Assembly: GCA_946611235.1 (NCBI GenBank)
Contig: CAMODE010000012.1
Coordinates: 1 to 32,607, forward strand
Reading direction: 5' to 3'
Source: an uncultured Caryophanales bacterium
Lineage (GTDB): Bacteria; Bacillota_I; Bacilli_A; RF39; UBA660
Length of the DNA stretch: 32,607 bases
Below are positions 6,037-18,297 of the stretch, piece by piece. The translations under genes and the position numbers were made by a program. The first letter of the stretch is position 1; each line of letters opens with the position of its first letter. Under the pieces are notes generated by a model. It was not told where the DNA came from. It searched no databases and was given only the letters and a program-made list of their open reading frames with translations.

Positions 6037-6053
6037 TTTTCGATTATCTTTTT
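6016..6053 (+). terminator. Bidirectional terminator between convergent genes
   Basis: Outer stem AAAAAGATAATC/GATTATCTTTTT with an inner GAAAA/TTTTC stem around a TAA loop. The flippase stop codon (6034-6036) is in the loop. A and T tracts on both sides would serve the plus gene and the convergent minus gene ending at 6066. Confidence 0.8.
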
Positions 6054-6065
6054 TGAACTTAATTA

Positions 6066-6617
6066 TTAAATTTCTTCCATAGTAGCATAGCATCTTATAT
6101 TAATATTGAAACTAGAAGAAGAAAAACTAGTATCATATAACTCTTCATCTAACCATACATATACAGTATAACTAGATGGTGATGTTACAAGAGAAATATT
6201 ACTAGCAGCTAGTACACTATCACCATTACTAACATTACTAATAGATCCCTCAGCTACTAAAGTATCATTATTATCCAGTACAGCATATTTAAGGGCACCA
6301 GAACTAGCTAAATCACTATTAATACTAACAATATCTAAATAAATATGACCATATATATCATAAGTATTATTCTTTTTATAAAAAGATACTGTTGCAGCAC
6401 TACCACTAGTATAACTAGTACCAGGATTCAAAGTAGAACCATTAATATTAATTCCTTTAGTATATTCAATATATTTATCAAGCCCTTTAACAGTAGCATT
6501 AATATTTAAATCAGCAAACAAAACATACCTATACATAGCATAAGTAAATCCAGCAATAGTAATGATAAATAGAATAACTCCTATTATATATCCAAATAAT
6601 TTAATTTTTTTCTTCAT
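6066..6617 (-). CDS. Short TasA/camelysin-like exported protein (copy 1)
   Basis: 183 aa with the architecture shared by four tandem genes: a basic start (MKKKIKLFGY), one hydrophobic helix ending GFTYAMYRY, then a beta-rich extracellular domain. The TYA-aromatic junction resembles the SipW-type signal peptides of TasA and CalY in Bacillus, which form biofilm fibres. The mature part is rich in Ser/Asn/Thr and lacks an LPXTG anchor. The start is supported by AAGGATAAGGG upstream. Its nearest relative here is the 184-aa protein at 7950. A terminator at 6662-6690 separates it from the other three genes. No SipW-like peptidase is in the window. Family assignment rests on the signal and domain style, so it is moderate. 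Confidence 0.65.
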   Translation of the reverse strand: MKKKIKLFGYIIGVILFIITIAGFTYAMYRYVLFADLNINATVKGLDKYIEYTKGININGSTLNPGTSYTSGSAATVSFYKKNNTYDIYGHIYLDIVSINSDLASSGALKYAVLDNNDTLVAEGSISNVSNGDSVLAASNISLVTSPSSYTVYVWLDEELYDTSFSSSSFNINIRCYATMEEI

Positions 6618-6661
6618 ATATATCCCTTATCCTTTAACTAATATAATGATAACACATTAAT

Positions 6662-6690
6662 AAAAAAAGTGCAATCAAATTGCACCCGTT
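6662..6690 (-). terminator. Terminator of the TasA-like operon
   Basis: Stem GTGCAA/TTGCAC with a 5-nt loop, followed on the minus strand by seven T. It lies between the 6709 gene and the 6066 gene. Confidence 0.8.
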
Positions 6691-6708
6691 TATTTCAAAT
6701 TATTCTTT

Positions 6709-7902
6709 TTAATAAGTTACAACAGTTACATTGCTAGGTAAGTTCTCATCTGCCATAAACGTTTCATAAGTAGTGGAATTAGCAGGTACTTCAACAGTAA
6801 TACTTTTAACAGTTCCAGTAAATGCATCAGTAATATTAGTAACATTACTTGAATTAATTCTAATTGTTCCCTCTAAATTAGTACAATCTTTAAATGTACT
6901 ATTCAGATTTGTAACTTTAGAAGGAATGATAGGTACGTTAATTAAATGCGTATTTTCATGAAACATTAAACTAAAATCATACATATCTAAATTATTATCA
7001 AAATATGCCTCATTAATATCATCCAATTTTGAAAATGTATAAGAAGATTCATCCCAACATTCATTATTACATACAGTATTTCTATAATTAACCAATTCCG
7101 TGTTATATACCGTACCATTTATGGAGTATGAAGCAGGAATAGATACTATTGAATTACTTCCAACATATTTTGTTAACTTAATGTTATTACCCTCTATCTC
7201 ATATTCGAAATCAGTAATTGGATTATATGGTGGCATTATCACTGAATTTTCAGGAATATTACCATTAATTTGTTCAATTGATGCTTCTACACTAGCACTA
7301 AAATTAGTATCGCTAGCATTATTATTAGCTAACTTGCCATTTAAATAAATAGCTAAAATATAGTTCTTTCTATTCCCATTATCTGGAATAGAATCATAGT
7401 ATATTTCTTTTGTTCCAGTATTAGTTATATATCCTTTAGTTAAGGTATTAAAAGTTTCTCCATCCAAATCATTAGAGTTTACACTAGGATATTCTTCTGG
7501 ATCATAATAGAATAAAGCATATTGTAAGGCATTAGTACTATCACCATTTTCCATATATGCAGATGGTAAACTAGTAACATTAAGAGCAATTCTTAAATAA
7601 CCATCAATAGTACAATCTGATGTAGTATCTTTCCATACACTAAAATTAGAAAGAACCATGCCTTTTTTTATAGTAATTTGATTATGATATATTTCATCAG
7701 AAGGTTCAATTAATAGTAAATCTTCACCATTAATATCTTCACTTTTAGTGAAATTACCTTCAACTAAACATTTACTATTTAAAGTAACATTATAATCAGA
7801 TGTTCTCCATACTATAATAGCATATGTTACTCCTAATGCTAGAAATATAAATAATATTATACCAATTATAATTCCTATTCTTTTTGAGTTTTTAAAATTC
7901 AT
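6709..7902 (-). CDS. Long TasA-like exported protein with BspA-like C-terminal repeats (copy 1)
   Basis: 397 aa. Residues 1-35 form a basic start and membrane helix ending LGVTYAIIVWR. A beta-rich TasA-like domain follows to about 210 (motifs such as LRIALNVTSLP and ALQYALFYYDPEEYP). A linker PPYNPITDFEYEIEGNNI leads to a C-terminal region about 170 residues long. That region has BspA/DUF285-type surface repeats (SLMFHENTHL, LNSTFKDCTNLEG) and ends VEVPANSTTYETF. It closely parallels the 418-aa protein at 8535. BspA-like repeats occur on host-associated bacteria and are linked to adhesion. There is no cell-wall anchor motif; retention may rely on an uncleaved helix or fibre assembly. Last gene of the operon 9791-6709. 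Confidence 0.65.
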   Translation of the reverse strand: MNFKNSKRIGIIIGIILFIFLALGVTYAIIVWRTSDYNVTLNSKCLVEGNFTKSEDINGEDLLLIEPSDEIYHNQITIKKGMVLSNFSVWKDTTSDCTIDGYLRIALNVTSLPSAYMENGDSTNALQYALFYYDPEEYPSVNSNDLDGETFNTLTKGYITNTGTKEIYYDSIPDNGNRKNYILAIYLNGKLANNNASDTNFSASVEASIEQINGNIPENSVIMPPYNPITDFEYEIEGNNIKLTKYVGSNSIVSIPASYSINGTVYNTELVNYRNTVCNNECWDESSYTFSKLDDINEAYFDNNLDMYDFSLMFHENTHLINVPIIPSKVTNLNSTFKDCTNLEGTIRINSSNVTNITDAFTGTVKSITVEVPANSTTYETFMADENLPSNVTVVTY

Positions 7903-7949
7903 ATTATATCCCTACTCTTTCTATAAAAAGAAAATTATATAAAATATAA

Positions 7950-8504
7950 TTATTCTATTTCATTTATTACTCCACTTTCACCAGTAGCATACAAAGATAA
8001 TTTAACAGTCTTATTCATCATATTACTATTATTAACTACACTACCATCTATCCAATAATAAATATTATATACATCAGTACTATCAGATGATATTTGAACA
8101 TCACTTAGTAAAACAATATTATCATCATTATTATAATTTTCAAAATTATCTCCATCTATATATTCATTACCCTTATATATAGCCCATAAGAATGTACTAT
8201 TTTTAAGTTCATCTGGTAATGAATTAATCTTCATATATAGACTAAATCTATTACCAGGAATATCAGAAGTAATTTTAATTTGTTTTAATACTCCTTCTTC
8301 TTTATTAAGTACTGGTTCTAATTCTCCAATAATATCAGGACCGCCTATAAAAGTTATTGTACTACTTGCGGTTAAGTTAACATTAACATTTTGTTCTGCA
8401 GTACTTCTCCACTTAAACCAAGCATAGGTGCCAGTACCAAACATTACTACAAATAAGAACATTCCAATTAAAGATAAAAGGATTCTTTTTCTTTTATTAT
8501 TCAT
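7950..8504 (-). CDS. Short TasA/camelysin-like exported protein (copy 2)
   Basis: 184 aa. The signal region is MNNKRKRILLSLIGMFLFVV, ending FGTGTYAWFKWRS. The TYAWF junction is the clearest TasA/CalY-like motif of the four. The mature part is a single beta-rich domain (VNVNLTASSTITFIGGPDI, then ILWAIYKGN-like strands) of the same length as the 6066 protein. GAGGTG precedes the ATG. It lies 30 nt after the 8535 gene and 47 nt before the 6709 gene, all on the minus strand, consistent with one transcript. The likely role is a fibre or surface-layer subunit, with the long neighbours as larger partners (inference). Confidence 0.68.
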   Translation of the reverse strand: MNNKRKRILLSLIGMFLFVVMFGTGTYAWFKWRSTAEQNVNVNLTASSTITFIGGPDIIGELEPVLNKEEGVLKQIKITSDIPGNRFSLYMKINSLPDELKNSTFLWAIYKGNEYIDGDNFENYNNDDNIVLLSDVQISSDSTDVYNIYYWIDGSVVNNSNMMNKTVKLSLYATGESGVINEIE

Positions 8505-8534
8505 ATATTTTTCACCTCTTGTATTTCCTTATTA

Positions 8535-9791
8535 TTATGGAGAAATTATCTGAGTTTTTCCTAATTGACTTATTTCAACATTATTAGGTATTGTTCCTTC
8601 TAAATCAGTATAAGTAGTACTACTGGCAGGTACTTCTACTACTATATTTTTAGTAGTACCATTAAAGGTATCAGAATCTACTACTACATTTTCATTTGAT
8701 ATTCTAATATAACCTTCTAAGTTAGTACAATTTTTAAATGTAGATAACATACTAGTAACACTACTAGGTACATACTCAATATTAGTAAGAGAAGTACATC
8801 CTTCATAAGTATTATTCATACTAGTAATAGTATCTGATAATTTAGGAGCACTTACTAAACTAGTACATCCTTTAAATAAACCATCTACAGAATTATTAAC
8901 TAATTCAGTACCATCATATTCTGAGAATACTACACTATCAGCAAAATTTACTTCAGTAATAGTAGTATTACCACTGAAAGTAGATGTATTATTAGAAGTA
9001 TCACTAATTATCATTACATTGTAAGTAGTATCATTAACGATATATGTACTAGGTATATTTACTACTGTATCAGTACCAGTATAACTAGTTAATAATATTG
9101 TATTAGATGGTAATTGTATACCATTATAACTATCTGTAACATAAGTAAAATCACTAATAGGAGTAGCTACAAATTGATCTGCTTTAGCACTAACAGTAGC
9201 ACTAATGTTAGCTCCGATTATATCACCTCCTACTTTATTTTTATCTAAATATATAATAACTAAATAATTATGCTTATCACCAGGACTTAAATATTCTGTA
9301 TGAATATCCATAGTACCTTCTTCAGAAATTATTCCTCTTCTTACATAAGTAAATGTTTGATTTTTTAAATATTGAATAGTAGAATCGGTATATAAATTAG
9401 GATCAAATTCCGCTACTACATATTTTAAAGACCCATAACTATTACCATTACTTGTATAAGCATTTGATAAAGAATTAACATTAAGTTCAATAGTACCAAT
9501 ACCACTAACTTTATTACATCTTTTATCTAGTTCCATACTAACAGGACTAAATCCCATAGCAGTACTTAACTTAATACTACTAGCAGTCAAGTAATCATCT
9601 TCATTAATAGCACCTATATTGCCAATAATATCATTGCCTTTACTATAGTTTATATTAAAACAATGAGTATTACCTGCTACTATAATATTACCAGTAGTAA
9701 AAGTAAGCCAAGCATATACTCCACCTAATACTAAAATAAGTAAAAGTACCGAACTAATTATAAGTATCTTAATTTTATTATTCTTTTCCAT
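8535..9791 (-). CDS. Long TasA-like exported protein with BspA-like C-terminal repeats (copy 2)
   Basis: 418 aa, first gene of the operon. The signal helix ends VLGGVYAWLTFTTGN. A beta-rich domain runs to about 215 (LKYVVAEFDPNLY matches the 6709 paralog). The linker ISDFTYVTDSYNGIQLP follows, then three BspA/DUF285-type units (LFKGCTSLVSAPKL, MNNTYEGCTSLTNIEYVP, MLSTFKNCTNLEGYIRI) and the shared ending VEVPASSTTYTDL. This copy has one or two more repeats than the 6709 copy, as expected of a repeat that expands and contracts. GGTAGGAAAG precedes the ATG, and a good promoter lies 26 nt upstream. It is probably a surface adhesin or matrix component. Confidence 0.68.
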   Translation of the reverse strand: MEKNNKIKILIISSVLLLILVLGGVYAWLTFTTGNIIVAGNTHCFNINYSKGNDIIGNIGAINEDDYLTASSIKLSTAMGFSPVSMELDKRCNKVSGIGTIELNVNSLSNAYTSNGNSYGSLKYVVAEFDPNLYTDSTIQYLKNQTFTYVRRGIISEEGTMDIHTEYLSPGDKHNYLVIIYLDKNKVGGDIIGANISATVSAKADQFVATPISDFTYVTDSYNGIQLPSNTILLTSYTGTDTVVNIPSTYIVNDTTYNVMIISDTSNNTSTFSGNTTITEVNFADSVVFSEYDGTELVNNSVDGLFKGCTSLVSAPKLSDTITSMNNTYEGCTSLTNIEYVPSSVTSMLSTFKNCTNLEGYIRISNENVVVDSDTFNGTTKNIVVEVPASSTTYTDLEGTIPNNVEISQLGKTQIISP

Positions 9792-10053: not shown

Positions 10054-11016
10054 TTATTTTATATCATTAATGTTTAAAGTATATATTTCTTCATTATCAA
10101 CATAAAATGATACTGTTTCTAAATTATTATATATATTATCCATAGAAAGTCCTATCGTATATATAACTTCTTCTAATATCTTATTACTATCAACATCACT
10201 AAGTACTAAATTATTAAAATTAAGTTTTAAATTATTATCTAAAAGTTCATAATTATATATTTCTGTATTAGCATTTAAATAGCTCATTAAATTAGTTTCA
10301 TATATTGGGGAACTACTAAGTTCTTTAATAATTACTTTTATTTTATCATCAGTATTATTATTTACATACTTAGTAACAGGAACATAGTATTCATAATCAT
10401 TATATTTATTAACATAATACATAGTATAATAATCAATATCTTTAGTACTAACTAAATCATAACTCTTATTAATACCAAAATCTCTATTTAATAAAGTTGG
10501 AAGTTTTGTACCACTAGGAAGAGAATTAAGTACTTCTCCTTCTACTTTTATTATGACATTATCAATACCATCAATACTAGTTAAAGTATAAATAATTGAT
10601 TCAATCATCTTATTTTCATCTTTATCATTAATATCTAGTAACTCTTTAGAAAAATTAATAGTAAGAGTTCTATCTTCTAAATTTAGATCTAATACACTAG
10701 TACCTGGAGGTATTATACTCCTAAAACCATTTGGTATAATATTAGATTTCTTACCATCAATAATAAGACCCTCTACTAAATCTTTAGCTTTATCTACTAC
10801 CTCACAATTACAACTTGATATACTAGTTCTAGCAACATAATCTTCACTATCAACTAAATATATTGTACTTACGATATTATCATAAGTATACTCAATACTA
10901 CTCTTATCTAAATCTATTTCTTTAATACTAGAGTCTGGTAGTAAATACATAATAACAAGTATTAGAATAGCACTAGTAGCTACCATAATCTTTTTAATAC
11001 TCATCTTCTTTAACAT
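10054..11016 (-). CDS. GerMN-domain protein (GerM-like)
   Basis: 320 aa. An N-terminal basic stretch and one membrane helix (residues 8-25, IMVATSAILILVIMYLL) anchor an extracellular part with two GerMN-type halves. The first spans about 45-165 (IYLVDSEDYVA, then RSIIPPGTSVLDLNLEDRTLTINFSKELL). The second spans about 195-320 (MYYVNKYNDYEYYVPVTKYV, ... NYELLDNNLKLNFNNLVL, ... IIYTIGLSMDNIYNNLETVSFYVD). In B. subtilis GerM is a two-domain lipoprotein needed for sporulation and germination. Here a transmembrane anchor replaces a clear lipobox. ATAGGTGATG gives the ribosome binding site. In a lineage that may not sporulate, a general envelope role is equally possible. Confidence 0.85.
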   Translation of the reverse strand: MLKKMSIKKIMVATSAILILVIMYLLPDSSIKEIDLDKSSIEYTYDNIVSTIYLVDSEDYVARTSISSCNCEVVDKAKDLVEGLIIDGKKSNIIPNGFRSIIPPGTSVLDLNLEDRTLTINFSKELLDINDKDENKMIESIIYTLTSIDGIDNVIIKVEGEVLNSLPSGTKLPTLLNRDFGINKSYDLVSTKDIDYYTMYYVNKYNDYEYYVPVTKYVNNNTDDKIKVIIKELSSSPIYETNLMSYLNANTEIYNYELLDNNLKLNFNNLVLSDVDSNKILEEVIYTIGLSMDNIYNNLETVSFYVDNEEIYTLNINDIK

Positions 11017-14110: not shown

Positions 14111-14623
14111 TTATACTAATACTTTATTATATTCTTTAGATTTTTCTTCAAGTAAAATAAAATTACAACATCTATCTTTTACATTTTTAGGAAGTTTATC
14201 TTCTTTGTATAATAAATATAATGCTCTTGCTTTAGTTCTAATTATTTTTCTATTAGATGTTAACCATCTTAACTGACTACGAAGCAGTTTTATTCTTAAC
14301 ATTTCATCTTTATCAGTATAATTCTTATCCAAATCATACTCTGCATAATTATTATTTGTAACTGGAATCATATTATTAAAATTAATTACACCCAAATTAC
14401 CATCATCTATTTTAACTAAATCAAGAGTATTTTTTAAATATTTATGTTTAGGTTTAGGACTAGATAAAAGTGCAAAATACTCTTTATCTTCTACCATAAA
14501 TAATACTCCAATAAATGGTCTTAATTCTTTAATACCAGCATTATATGATACCCTATTATCATACTTTCTAAGATAATTACAGTAATTATAATCTACTTTT
14601 ACAATTTTAAAACTTTTAAACAT
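14111..14623 (-). CDS. toxN: Type III toxin-antitoxin toxin, ToxN/AbiQ-family endoribonuclease
   Basis: 170 aa with the ToxN/AbiQ pattern: an N-terminal KIVKVDYNYCNYLRKYDNRV, then RPFIGVLFMVEDKEYFALLSSPKPKHK, where the SPK-x-KH block contains the catalytic Lys region. ALLSSPKPKH, GNLGVINFNNMIPV and the C-terminal helical RTKARALYLLYKE follow. Family members are sequence-specific ribonucleases that cut cellular and antitoxin RNA and are held inactive by small pseudoknot RNAs. Many act as phage abortive-infection systems. The length is normal and all core motifs are visible, so it looks functional. The tandem repeats and terminator upstream (14703-14816) complete the canonical locus. The start is supported by AAAAGGGAG. 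The downstream neighbour is gltX. Confidence 0.95.
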   Translation of the reverse strand: MFKSFKIVKVDYNYCNYLRKYDNRVSYNAGIKELRPFIGVLFMVEDKEYFALLSSPKPKHKYLKNTLDLVKIDDGNLGVINFNNMIPVTNNNYAEYDLDKNYTDKDEMLRIKLLRSQLRWLTSNRKIIRTKARALYLLYKEDKLPKNVKDRCCNFILLEEKSKEYNKVLV

Positions 14624-16126: not shown

Positions 16127-17218
16127 CTACGTGCTTTGTTTTAGTTTTTCTTCAATTAATTTTTTGTTATTTAGTAATCTTTTATCATCTGGAGATAACT
16201 CTAATGCTTTATTTATATTTTCTAGTGATTTATTATAATTACCTTTATAATAGTATGCTAAAGATAATAAATCATAAGGAGTATGATTCCAACTAAATAT
16301 TTCATTGATATAACTTTTAGTACTCTTTTCTATTTTTAATGCTTTATTTGTGTATTCTTCTACTTCATCCCAATTATTTAATTCATATTCGATTAGTGCT
16401 CTTTCCATATATGGATCTCTTAAATATGGAGCTTCACTAATTGCCTTATCTGTCCACATTCTTGCTTCATCGTATCTTTTTAAATATTTATAACATCTAG
16501 CAATAAATCTCATTGAAGCACATCTTTCATCTTTCCAAGTTGCTCTAGGTAATTTTAAATGTTTAATTAATGTATCTATTGCTTCATTATATTTACCATA
16601 GAACATATATTCTCTACCTAGATAGTGCATATTTCGGTCATCATCTGGATCCTCTTTAACAGATAATTCAAGTAGTGGTAAATATGCGCTTCTAGATTTA
16701 TTATTATCTGGATAATGTTCAACCGTTATTTCATCAGTTGTTAAAAATATTTCTTTTTCTCCAGTATATGTAAGTACTTCATGTACTGGATGAGTCCATT
16801 TATAATTCCTTCTAGAGTGTATTTTCTCTATATAAAAATTTACTTCTGGATTATGATATTTATCAAAACTCCATATATAATTATATCTTAGTCTTGTTAT
16901 TTTATCATTCCAAAGTTCTTCTAGTTTATTTCTCCAACCTTCTTTTAGTACTTCATCTAAATCAATACATACACATATATCAGTATCATCATCTACCATA
17001 TCTAAACTCATATTTCTTGCTACATCAAATCGCCATGGCTTTATTTCTTTAGTTTCGACGATAGCACCTATTTTTTTTAATTTTTCTACAGTTTTATCCG
17101 TACTACCAGTATCTAAAACAAATACTTTATCTGCCTCACTTACGCTATTCATAAATCTATCTACAAACTTTTCTTCATTCTTACAGATAGCATATACACA
17201 TACTTTATATTTTTTCAT
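16127..17218 (-). CDS. Family 2 glycosyltransferase fused to TPR repeats
   Basis: 363 aa. Residues 1-160 are a GT-A fold GT2 domain: MKKYKVCVYAICKNEEKFVDRF, DTGSTDKTVEKLKKIGA, RNMSLDM, and the metal-binding CIDLDEVLKEGW. HSRRNYKWTHPVHEVL follows. Residues about 185-360 are helical TPR-like repeats (YNEAIDTLIKHLKLP, YDEARMWTDKAI, YNKSLENINKALELSPDD). TPR-linked GT2 enzymes often modify proteins or act on surface glycans. It is cytoplasmic. Three collagen-like genes lie directly upstream in the same direction, separated by a terminator, so glycosylation of their Thr-rich GPT/GAT repeats is a plausible role, as with BclA glycosylation in Bacillus (inference). ATG is preceded by GAGGTG. Confidence 0.88.
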   Translation of the reverse strand: MKKYKVCVYAICKNEEKFVDRFMNSVSEADKVFVLDTGSTDKTVEKLKKIGAIVETKEIKPWRFDVARNMSLDMVDDDTDICVCIDLDEVLKEGWRNKLEELWNDKITRLRYNYIWSFDKYHNPEVNFYIEKIHSRRNYKWTHPVHEVLTYTGEKEIFLTTDEITVEHYPDNNKSRSAYLPLLELSVKEDPDDDRNMHYLGREYMFYGKYNEAIDTLIKHLKLPRATWKDERCASMRFIARCYKYLKRYDEARMWTDKAISEAPYLRDPYMERALIEYELNNWDEVEEYTNKALKIEKSTKSYINEIFSWNHTPYDLLSLAYYYKGNYNKSLENINKALELSPDDKRLLNNKKLIEEKLKQST

Positions 17219-17260
17219 ATTACACCTCTCTATATTTTATGAAAGAAACTTATTTAAATA

Positions 17261-17292
17261 AATAAAACTGTCCTATAAAGAACAGTTTTATT
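17261..17292 (-). terminator. Terminator of the collagen-like operon
   Basis: Perfect 11-bp stem AATAAAACTGT/ACAGTTTTATT with a 10-nt loop, 3 nt after the stop of the 17296 gene. T-rich on the minus strand. Confidence 0.8.
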
Positions 17293-17295
17293 ATC

Positions 17296-18297
17296 CTAAT
17301 TTAATTTTTTAACACTTAAAGTAGCATTAACTCCAGAACTTAGAGATACTCCTACTGCTAGTAATGCAGTCATGGCAAGATCTATTACTGCTCCTGCTGG
17401 TAGTGTTACGATAACACTACCACTATAGATAGAACCTACTCCTACAGATAATGCTCTTGATATTACAGTTGATGGTATATTTGTACCATTACTTCTAACA
17501 GCCATTGTAATAGTTGTAGCTGCTGCTGCAGTCATATTACTATAGTAATTAATTTCATATGTACCTGCTTGAGTTACAGTAATAGCATTAGCTGTAGCAT
17601 ATGTAGTATTTAAGTTTGGCATAGTTTCATTAAGTGGTATTTGAGTTGCAGTTCCTATAGATATACTTATTGTTTGCGCACCAGTATTATATCTACCACC
17701 ATAAGCATTTAATCCACCTGTTGGTCCTGTTGGTCCCGTTGGACCTGTTGCACCTATCAATCCTTGGGGTCCTGTTGCTCCGGTTGGACCTGTAGCGCCT
17801 ATTAATCCTTGTGGGCCTGTTGCTCCTGTTGGTCCTGTAGCGCCTATTAATCCTTGAGGTCCTGTTGCTCCTGTTGGACCTGTAACTCCTATTAATCCTT
17901 GAGGTCCTGTTGCTCCTGTTGGACCAGTAGCTCCTGCTAATCCTTGAGGTCCTGTTGCTCCCGTCGGACCTGTTGCTCCTACTAATCCTTGAGGTCCTGT
18001 TGCTCCCGTTGGACCAGTAGCACCCACTAATCCTTGTGGACCTGTTGCTCCGGTTGCGCCAGTAGCTCCTGCTAATCCTTGAGGTCCTATTGCTCCTGTT
18101 GGACCAGTTGCACCTATTAATCCTTGTGGGCCTGTGACTCCGGTTGGACCAGTTGCACCTATTAATCCTTGTGGGCCTGTTGCTCCAGTTGGACCAGTAG
18201 TTCCTGCTATTCCCTGAGGTCCTGTTGCTCCTGTTGGACCGGTAGGACCTTGTGGGATAACAAAATTTAATAAATAATCAGCATTTATAATTATCAT
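17296..18297 (-). CDS. Collagen-like protein with BclA-type C-terminal domain
   Basis: 333 aa. A short N-terminus ([16 protein letters not shown]) leads into about 175 residues of uninterrupted Gly-X-Y, built from 11 copies of a 15-residue unit [15 protein letters not shown] (45 bp). A trimerising-type beta domain of about 140 residues follows ([16 protein letters not shown] ... [14 protein letters not shown]-like strands ... [13 protein letters not shown]). This resembles the C1q/TNF-like head of BclA, the hair-nap glycoprotein of Bacillus exosporium. Thr in Y positions is typical of glycosylated bacterial collagens. No classic signal peptide is present, as in BclA. The Shine-Dalgarno GAAGGG is unusually close to the ATG. 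Third gene of a collagen-like operon. Confidence 0.9.
17707..18255 (-). repeat. 45-bp tandem repeats encoding GPQG-collagen units
   Basis: About 11 near-identical 45-bp units inside the collagen-like gene. They vary mainly at third codon positions and at the LI/LA/LV residues. Such repeats can change copy number by slippage or recombination. Confidence 0.9.

Follow-up and report, generated by a model that had tools for sequence, protein, structure and literature searches.

Do four adjacent genes of an uncultured Caryophanales bacterium, alike in their signal junctions and different in whether they carry a C-terminal repeat domain, encode the parts of a surface filament? The genes, called here M4, M3, M2 and M1 in order of transcription, lie consecutively on the minus strand at positions 6066-9791 of contig CAMODE010000012.1 (assembly GCA_946611235.1), whose 32,607 nt constitute the window that was analysed (contig C12 of a genome of 1.27 Mb in 62 contigs). 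They belong to a protein family with a common stem that occurs in two classes, is encoded in pairs of the two, bears exchangeable C-terminal heads and lacks a C-terminal anchor, in a genome that encodes SipW-type signal peptidases. The ensemble looks like a modular kit for adhesive, presumably fibrous surface structures. We propose that they build a heterotypic filament or adhesin kit at the cell surface, processed by SipW, probably assembled by donor strands and fitted with heads that can be interchanged, and give this reading a probability of about one half; that filaments form is conjectural.

M4 (8535-9791) encodes 418 amino acids (aa) with a class II stem and a head of the BspA-type leucine-rich repeat (LRR) kind. 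Its SipW-type signal segment (9711-9791, residues 1-27; helix 4-33 in the AlphaFold 2 model) ends in GGVYA before WLTF. The mature beta-sandwich stem follows at 9165-9710 (residues 28-209, delimited by a profile match to residues 1-210 and the strands of the model), and the head at 8538-9155 was placed by an LRR_5 match, the model and Foldseek. M3 (7950-8504, 184 aa) is a headless class I stem, the classes of M4 and M3 being taken from trees. M2 (6709-7902, 397 aa) again combines a class II stem with a BspA/DUF285-like head (6712-7260), which matches DUF285 and groups with that of M4 and with further LRR heads, and M1 (6066-6617, 183 aa) is a headless class II stem.

A profile built from ten stems of the source genome detected about 15 family copies in that genome and 7-17 in each of the ten other genomes of the genus that were searched; all 11 genus genomes, the source included, are positive. 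Carriers make up 40 of the 117 relatives searched, all within one bacterial family. From the fetched loci we gathered 133 members, 111 of them complete (G, L and C numbers denote genomes, sequenced loci and contigs of the source genome; the named relatives that were fetched are metagenome-assembled genomes of uncultured 'Bacillales'). Nothing relevant to this combination of features was found among open-access papers.

The junctions of the four genes read GGVYAWLTF, GTGTYAWFKW, LGVTYAIIVW and AGFTYAMYRY. Of 123 members, 119 can be aligned to the family consensus G-x-T-Y-A-[YW]-[FY]-x-W-x-S, and in these aromatic residues follow the presumed cut at +1 (81%), +2 (76%) and +4 (66%), with polar ones at +3 and +5. 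A strict regular expression of the junction picks out 71 of 128 members, against 1 of 664 other open reading frames. Because the consensus is so general and its strict form so rare elsewhere, the pattern, judged from sequence, is not chance. Conservation of this kind behind the cut is not usually seen with plain signal peptides but would be expected of a donor strand. A strong N-terminal membrane segment is present in all 111 complete members, a C-terminal one in none. Sortase anchoring of the LPXTG type was ruled out, as the required C-terminal signals are missing; sortases do occur in the genome.

Aligned by hhalign with the signals of TasA/camelysin-type proteins encoded beside SipW in the same bacterial family, the signals of our family scored 48 (Prob 96), above all 40 random sets of other proteins with an N-terminal membrane segment (best control 37); only this control comparison was used, as E-values are inflated for signal segments and unrelated controls reach Prob 94. 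The references were taken from SipW neighbourhoods because a PF12389 survey of the class and phylum for a reference set had found only one genome of the same family. On this comparison the family carries a SipW-class signal peptide. In the source genome, TIGR04088 exceeds its cut-off only for proteins other than family members. The best SipW-cognate signal of this genome (TIGR04088, 24.5 bits) belongs to a 616-aa protein (L026:2267-4117, contig C10) that also has a Big_3 domain and a Vgb_lyase/beta-propeller-like C-terminus.

A suitable signal peptidase, whose absence would have spoken against the reading in an earlier note on this DNA, is indeed encoded: three SipW/archaeal-type signal peptidases score above the cut-off of TIGR02228, to which SipW belongs, and among the 40 carrier genomes 39 have a TIGR02228 peptidase. 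Such peptidases adjoin TasA/camelysin-type proteins in related genomes. The SipW operon of the source genome (C5) encodes, two genes on, a 471-aa protein whose C-terminal domain is of the head family of several headed members (38% over 324 aa to L117, E 3e-59). Signal match and head, by their sequence likeness, tie the family to SipW, whereas the presence of the peptidase alone proves little. Two of the three peptidases (L022:10279-11403 and L024:10337-11467) are unlike classical SipW in having about 375 aa and a long N-terminal extension with multiple membrane segments; one of the two adjoins a TasA-like 207-aa protein.

M3 was modelled by AlphaFold as a ten-strand beta-sandwich (predicted local distance difference test, pLDDT, 84.9), and the model of M4 (pLDDT 85, predicted TM-score 0.76) shows an M3-like stem followed by the repeat head. 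The segment after the cut has low pLDDT in both and lies outside the sheets, between signal helix and first strand; the conserved aromatics at +1, +2 and +4 fall in this low-confidence stretch. A Foldseek search with the M3 stem retrieved the Pyrobaculum bundling pilin 7ueg (prob 0.98, E 2.5e-3, TM about 0.34) and a mixture of other beta-sandwiches, among them CFA/I CfaB; searching PDB sequences with the stem profile gave chance matches only. Class I and class II mature profiles are homologous (hhalign Prob 99.3, E 8e-21). Unrelated folds of the short and the long proteins, which would also have spoken against that reading, are thus not what was found, and the shared signal junction and beta domain that the earlier note had ascribed to all four genes are borne out.

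Class II forms a clade of 44 rows supported by the Shimodaira-Hasegawa-like approximate likelihood ratio test (SH-aLRT 93; 93/89 in a smaller careful tree). Same-strand neighbours at most 100 bp apart number 33, of which 28 combine class I with class II, three are II/II and two include unclassed members; the 28 mixed pairs among 31 classed ones compare with about half expected from class frequencies. Four I/I neighbours lie 211-285 bp apart. The II/II exceptions are M2-M1 and its counterpart in G010, both split by a terminator, and a borderline third case, L161. The pairs are conserved across the genus. The proposal that a plain subunit is paired with a headed one holds in so far as further loci and further species have such pairs too, which speaks for a functional pair, but the meaningful pairing is that of stem classes, not of short with long. 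Which class bears the head varies: in the window it is class II, in G062, in G009 and at the C19/C3/C12 locus it is class I, and in G001 both bear one. Among the complete genes of the two classes, 57 are short and 52 long.

In the window the intergenic gaps measure 31, 48 and 92 bp in order of transcription, and a terminator-like hairpin with a T run stands between M2 and M1 (6667-6687, minus strand); five terminator-like sites were found in the region against 0.6 expected, and locus L081 of G010 has a hairpin and T run at the syntenic place. Given this terminator, M4-M3-M2 is likely one operon with M4 as its first gene, and M1 is probably a separate transcription unit. The stem order is accordingly II-I-II, terminator, and a separate class II gene. 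The long-short-long-short order had been read as duplication of a two-gene unit, which the trees rule out: only M3 belongs to class I, the other three being class II, and M1 does not group with M3 as its sister. A short-long unit did expand, but in the relative G007, where the orthologous array alternates II-I through nine genes with every step at most 100 bp. In G010, M3 has a counterpart with 86% identity, and that of M2 (L081:9441) is 87% identical in its N part and 56% in its head. The closest counterpart of M1 in G007 (L080:1016, 563 aa) is headed and has 54% N identity.

The head of M4 matches LRR_5 (E 1.3e-4) and that of M2 matches DUF285 (E 0.012), both under the Pfam cut-offs, while the syntenic counterpart of M4 in G010 (L081:7208-8806) exceeds both cut-offs (46.4 and 32.1 bits). 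Searched with Foldseek, the M4 model returned BspA-type LRR structures first (6mlx, E 1.8e-5; 4gt6, E 9.9e-5; prob 1.00), and we assign its head, as modelled, the BspA-type LRR fold. The division into two plain proteins and two with BspA/DUF285-like C-terminal repeats, as first proposed, holds. The main head clusters of the family are LRR/DUF285 heads, heads of the RPxxYLKS type ending in GtGtxxnPYxl, and FGE-like or dockerin-bearing ones. LRR/DUF285 heads occur on both stem classes (22 I, 9 II), as do RPxxYLKS heads (12 I, 8 II); the latter cluster has no Pfam name (one of nine members weakly resembles DUF6273, E 0.17) and no meaningful PDB match.

Heads also differ between orthologous positions. 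At the M4 locus the stems are 79-80% identical, whereas the heads differ in length and their starts are 69% (L079:9739) and 33% (L081:7208) identical. The syntenic loci L032, L091 and L092 share stems of 80-81% identity, with a BspA head in the first two and an unrelated uncharacterised domain in the third. L023 is headless, while its syntenic versions in G007 and G010, with stems 79-82% identical, have 551-617 aa. Contig C19 runs on into C53 (141 bp overlap, 100%), and the head encoded there is InlB-repeat/LamG-like (the InlB repeat, Flg_new, is the sole Pfam match; LamG is our reading of the sequence), while G007 and G010 have DUF285 heads at this place. Parsimony requires at least 18 switches between headed and headless states. 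These alignments show heads to be exchangeable between stems.

Some further copies deserve mention. Two members carry a type I dockerin after the stem (L132:4244-6289 in G054, E 3.7e-9; L154:3013-5184 in G033, E 2.4e-5), which might permit a cellulosome-like docking. On C27, a class I copy of DUF285 type is broken by an in-frame TGA and TAA (L030, about 6039-6620, minus strand), and copies with in-frame stops also occur in G003, G007 and G010. The stems of L029:1-620 and L022:1-447, both at contig ends, are 91% identical, the differences lying mostly in the 5' half and the 3' half being near-identical, a pattern that looks like a recombination tract between paralogues.

According to our proposal, each precursor would be cut after T-Y-A of its SipW-class signal by a SipW-type peptidase, exposing the alternating aromatic segment [YW][FY]xWxS as new mature N-terminus. 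Most likely this segment would insert as a donor strand into an adjacent subunit and complete the beta-sandwich there, which is how TasA, archaeal bundling pili and archaeal threads assemble. A single heterotypic filament or short stalk could then arise from co-transcribed class I and class II stems, alternating or in pairs. The head of whichever partner has one (BspA-LRR, DUF285, LamG/InlB-repeat or other) would be presented on it for adhesion or as a variable surface. More tentatively, and with considerable doubt, we consider a combinatorial filament in which two obligately paired stem classes would polymerise by exchanging strands, with neither sortase nor usher, either of them carrying any of several heads, so that a small genome could show many fibre tips or decorations and swap them between loci by recombination.

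TasA of Bacillus subtilis polymerises via its first mature residues, which act as a donor strand (PMC9674648). The TasA/TapA/SipW system (PMC9674648, PMC10151520) resembles the family in its SipW-class signal, beta-sandwich subunit, N-terminal segment free as donor strand, second partner protein in tandem and lack of a sortase signal. It differs in that here the mature domain is without detectable homology to it, about 15 copies exist per genome, the C-terminal heads are exchangeable, two homologous stem classes stand in tandem, and SipW is encoded elsewhere. In Bacillus cereus, TasA and CalY form heterofilaments (PMC13082335), likewise from two secreted SipW-class subunits without sortase, and a corresponding co-assembly may take place here; that system has no heads and a single locus, and no CapP gene was recognised here. 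BsaA fibres of Clostridium perfringens (PMC7395162) are SipW-dependent, beta-rich and sortase-independent, as a polymer of our stems would be, but have one major subunit in the sipW operon and no reported head modules. Archaeal threads (Saci_0406), with a conserved YYY motif right after the cut (PMC9715654), and the Pyrobaculum bundling pili (7ueg) combine a cleaved N-terminal signal, an aromatic segment behind the cut, a beta-sandwich and a donor strand, of which cut and strand are presumed here; both are archaeal, with a single main subunit and a possible cap, and the structural match is weak. The heads share their fold with BspA-like LRR and DUF285 surface proteins (6mlx, 4gt6; LRR_5, DUF285), but are here mounted on a SipW-class stem.

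Several observations weigh against the proposed filament. All AlphaFold models are of single chains. The likeness of the modelled stem to known donor-strand pilins is weak and mixed with that to other beta-sandwiches, and the mature stem has no homology to the camelysin/TasA profile of SipW neighbours (hhalign Prob 0.5). The I/II pairing is a strong pattern, but its pairs represent few independent trials, about four locus types (the window array, a conserved 207+186-aa pair, G062 and G009). No SipW-type peptidase is encoded in the window, the nearest SipW genes being on other contigs, and of 30 genomes of the same bacterial family that are non-carriers, 27 encode such peptidases too, for which reason we rejected SipW co-occurrence as proof.

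The last point, together with the strong N-terminal membrane segment of all complete members and the adhesin-like heads, would also suit the main rival, namely cell-bound single-chain adhesins whose N-terminal helix stays uncut, or which are released without polymerising; the stem would be a spacer and the headless members decoys or relics. A mere anchor needs no strict aromatic pattern behind the cut. Moreover, headless members are as common as headed ones and the pairs are genus-wide, which argues that they are not relics; we regard this explanation as unlikely, though by far not negligible.

Next, classes I and II could be the counterparts of TasA and CalY in a strict biofilm fibre system with the heads as decoration, an improbable reading in our estimate, although the signal is of SipW type, joint assembly of TasA and CalY is known from B. 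cereus (PMC13082335) and PF12389 is the commonest Pfam family among members. Its matches are weak throughout (5 of 47 members; M4, E 0.16), and none in the source genome exceeds the cut-off (at most 15 bits against 22.5). With the mature-domain comparison given above, this rules out strict TasA/camelysin membership; this bacterial family has camelysin-type proteins proper as well, encoded separately beside SipW (L101, 40 bits). The term 'TasA-like' of the earlier note fits the signal and general fold and fails for the mature domain: the proteins are SipW-class and TasA-like in design, but not a TasA. A spore-surface appendage or coat system, suggested by a GerMN-domain gene (10054-11016) syntenic with the array in three genomes and by a gene with collagen repeats and BclA_C (17296-18297) in the window, is very improbable, as most members stand at scattered loci without spore genes nearby and SipW-class secretion suggests the vegetative surface.

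Elsewhere in the window, all on the minus strand, a glycosyltransferase family 2 gene with tetratricopeptide repeats adjoins the gene of the collagen-repeat protein with BclA C-terminal domain (16127-18297), a pair that might produce a glycosylated surface or spore filament. The gene at 14111-14623 encodes a ToxN toxin of a type III toxin-antitoxin system (Pfam E 3e-41), and that at 977-1918 a YhcG/DUF1016 PDDEXK nuclease, possibly a defence or mobile-element gene.

A few Bacillus and Clostridium species are known to make SipW-dependent fibres that need no sortase and consist of plain subunits. The family described here is a real and interesting variant of such surface-fibre systems, in which the filament itself is unproven. 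Here a SipW-class signal is combined with a new stem family whose adhesin-like heads are exchangeable, present in about 15 copies in a genome of 1.27 Mb. If the stems polymerise, the result would be a modular display system that follows a logic like that of chaperone-usher pili and their tip adhesins, in monoderms that lack an usher.

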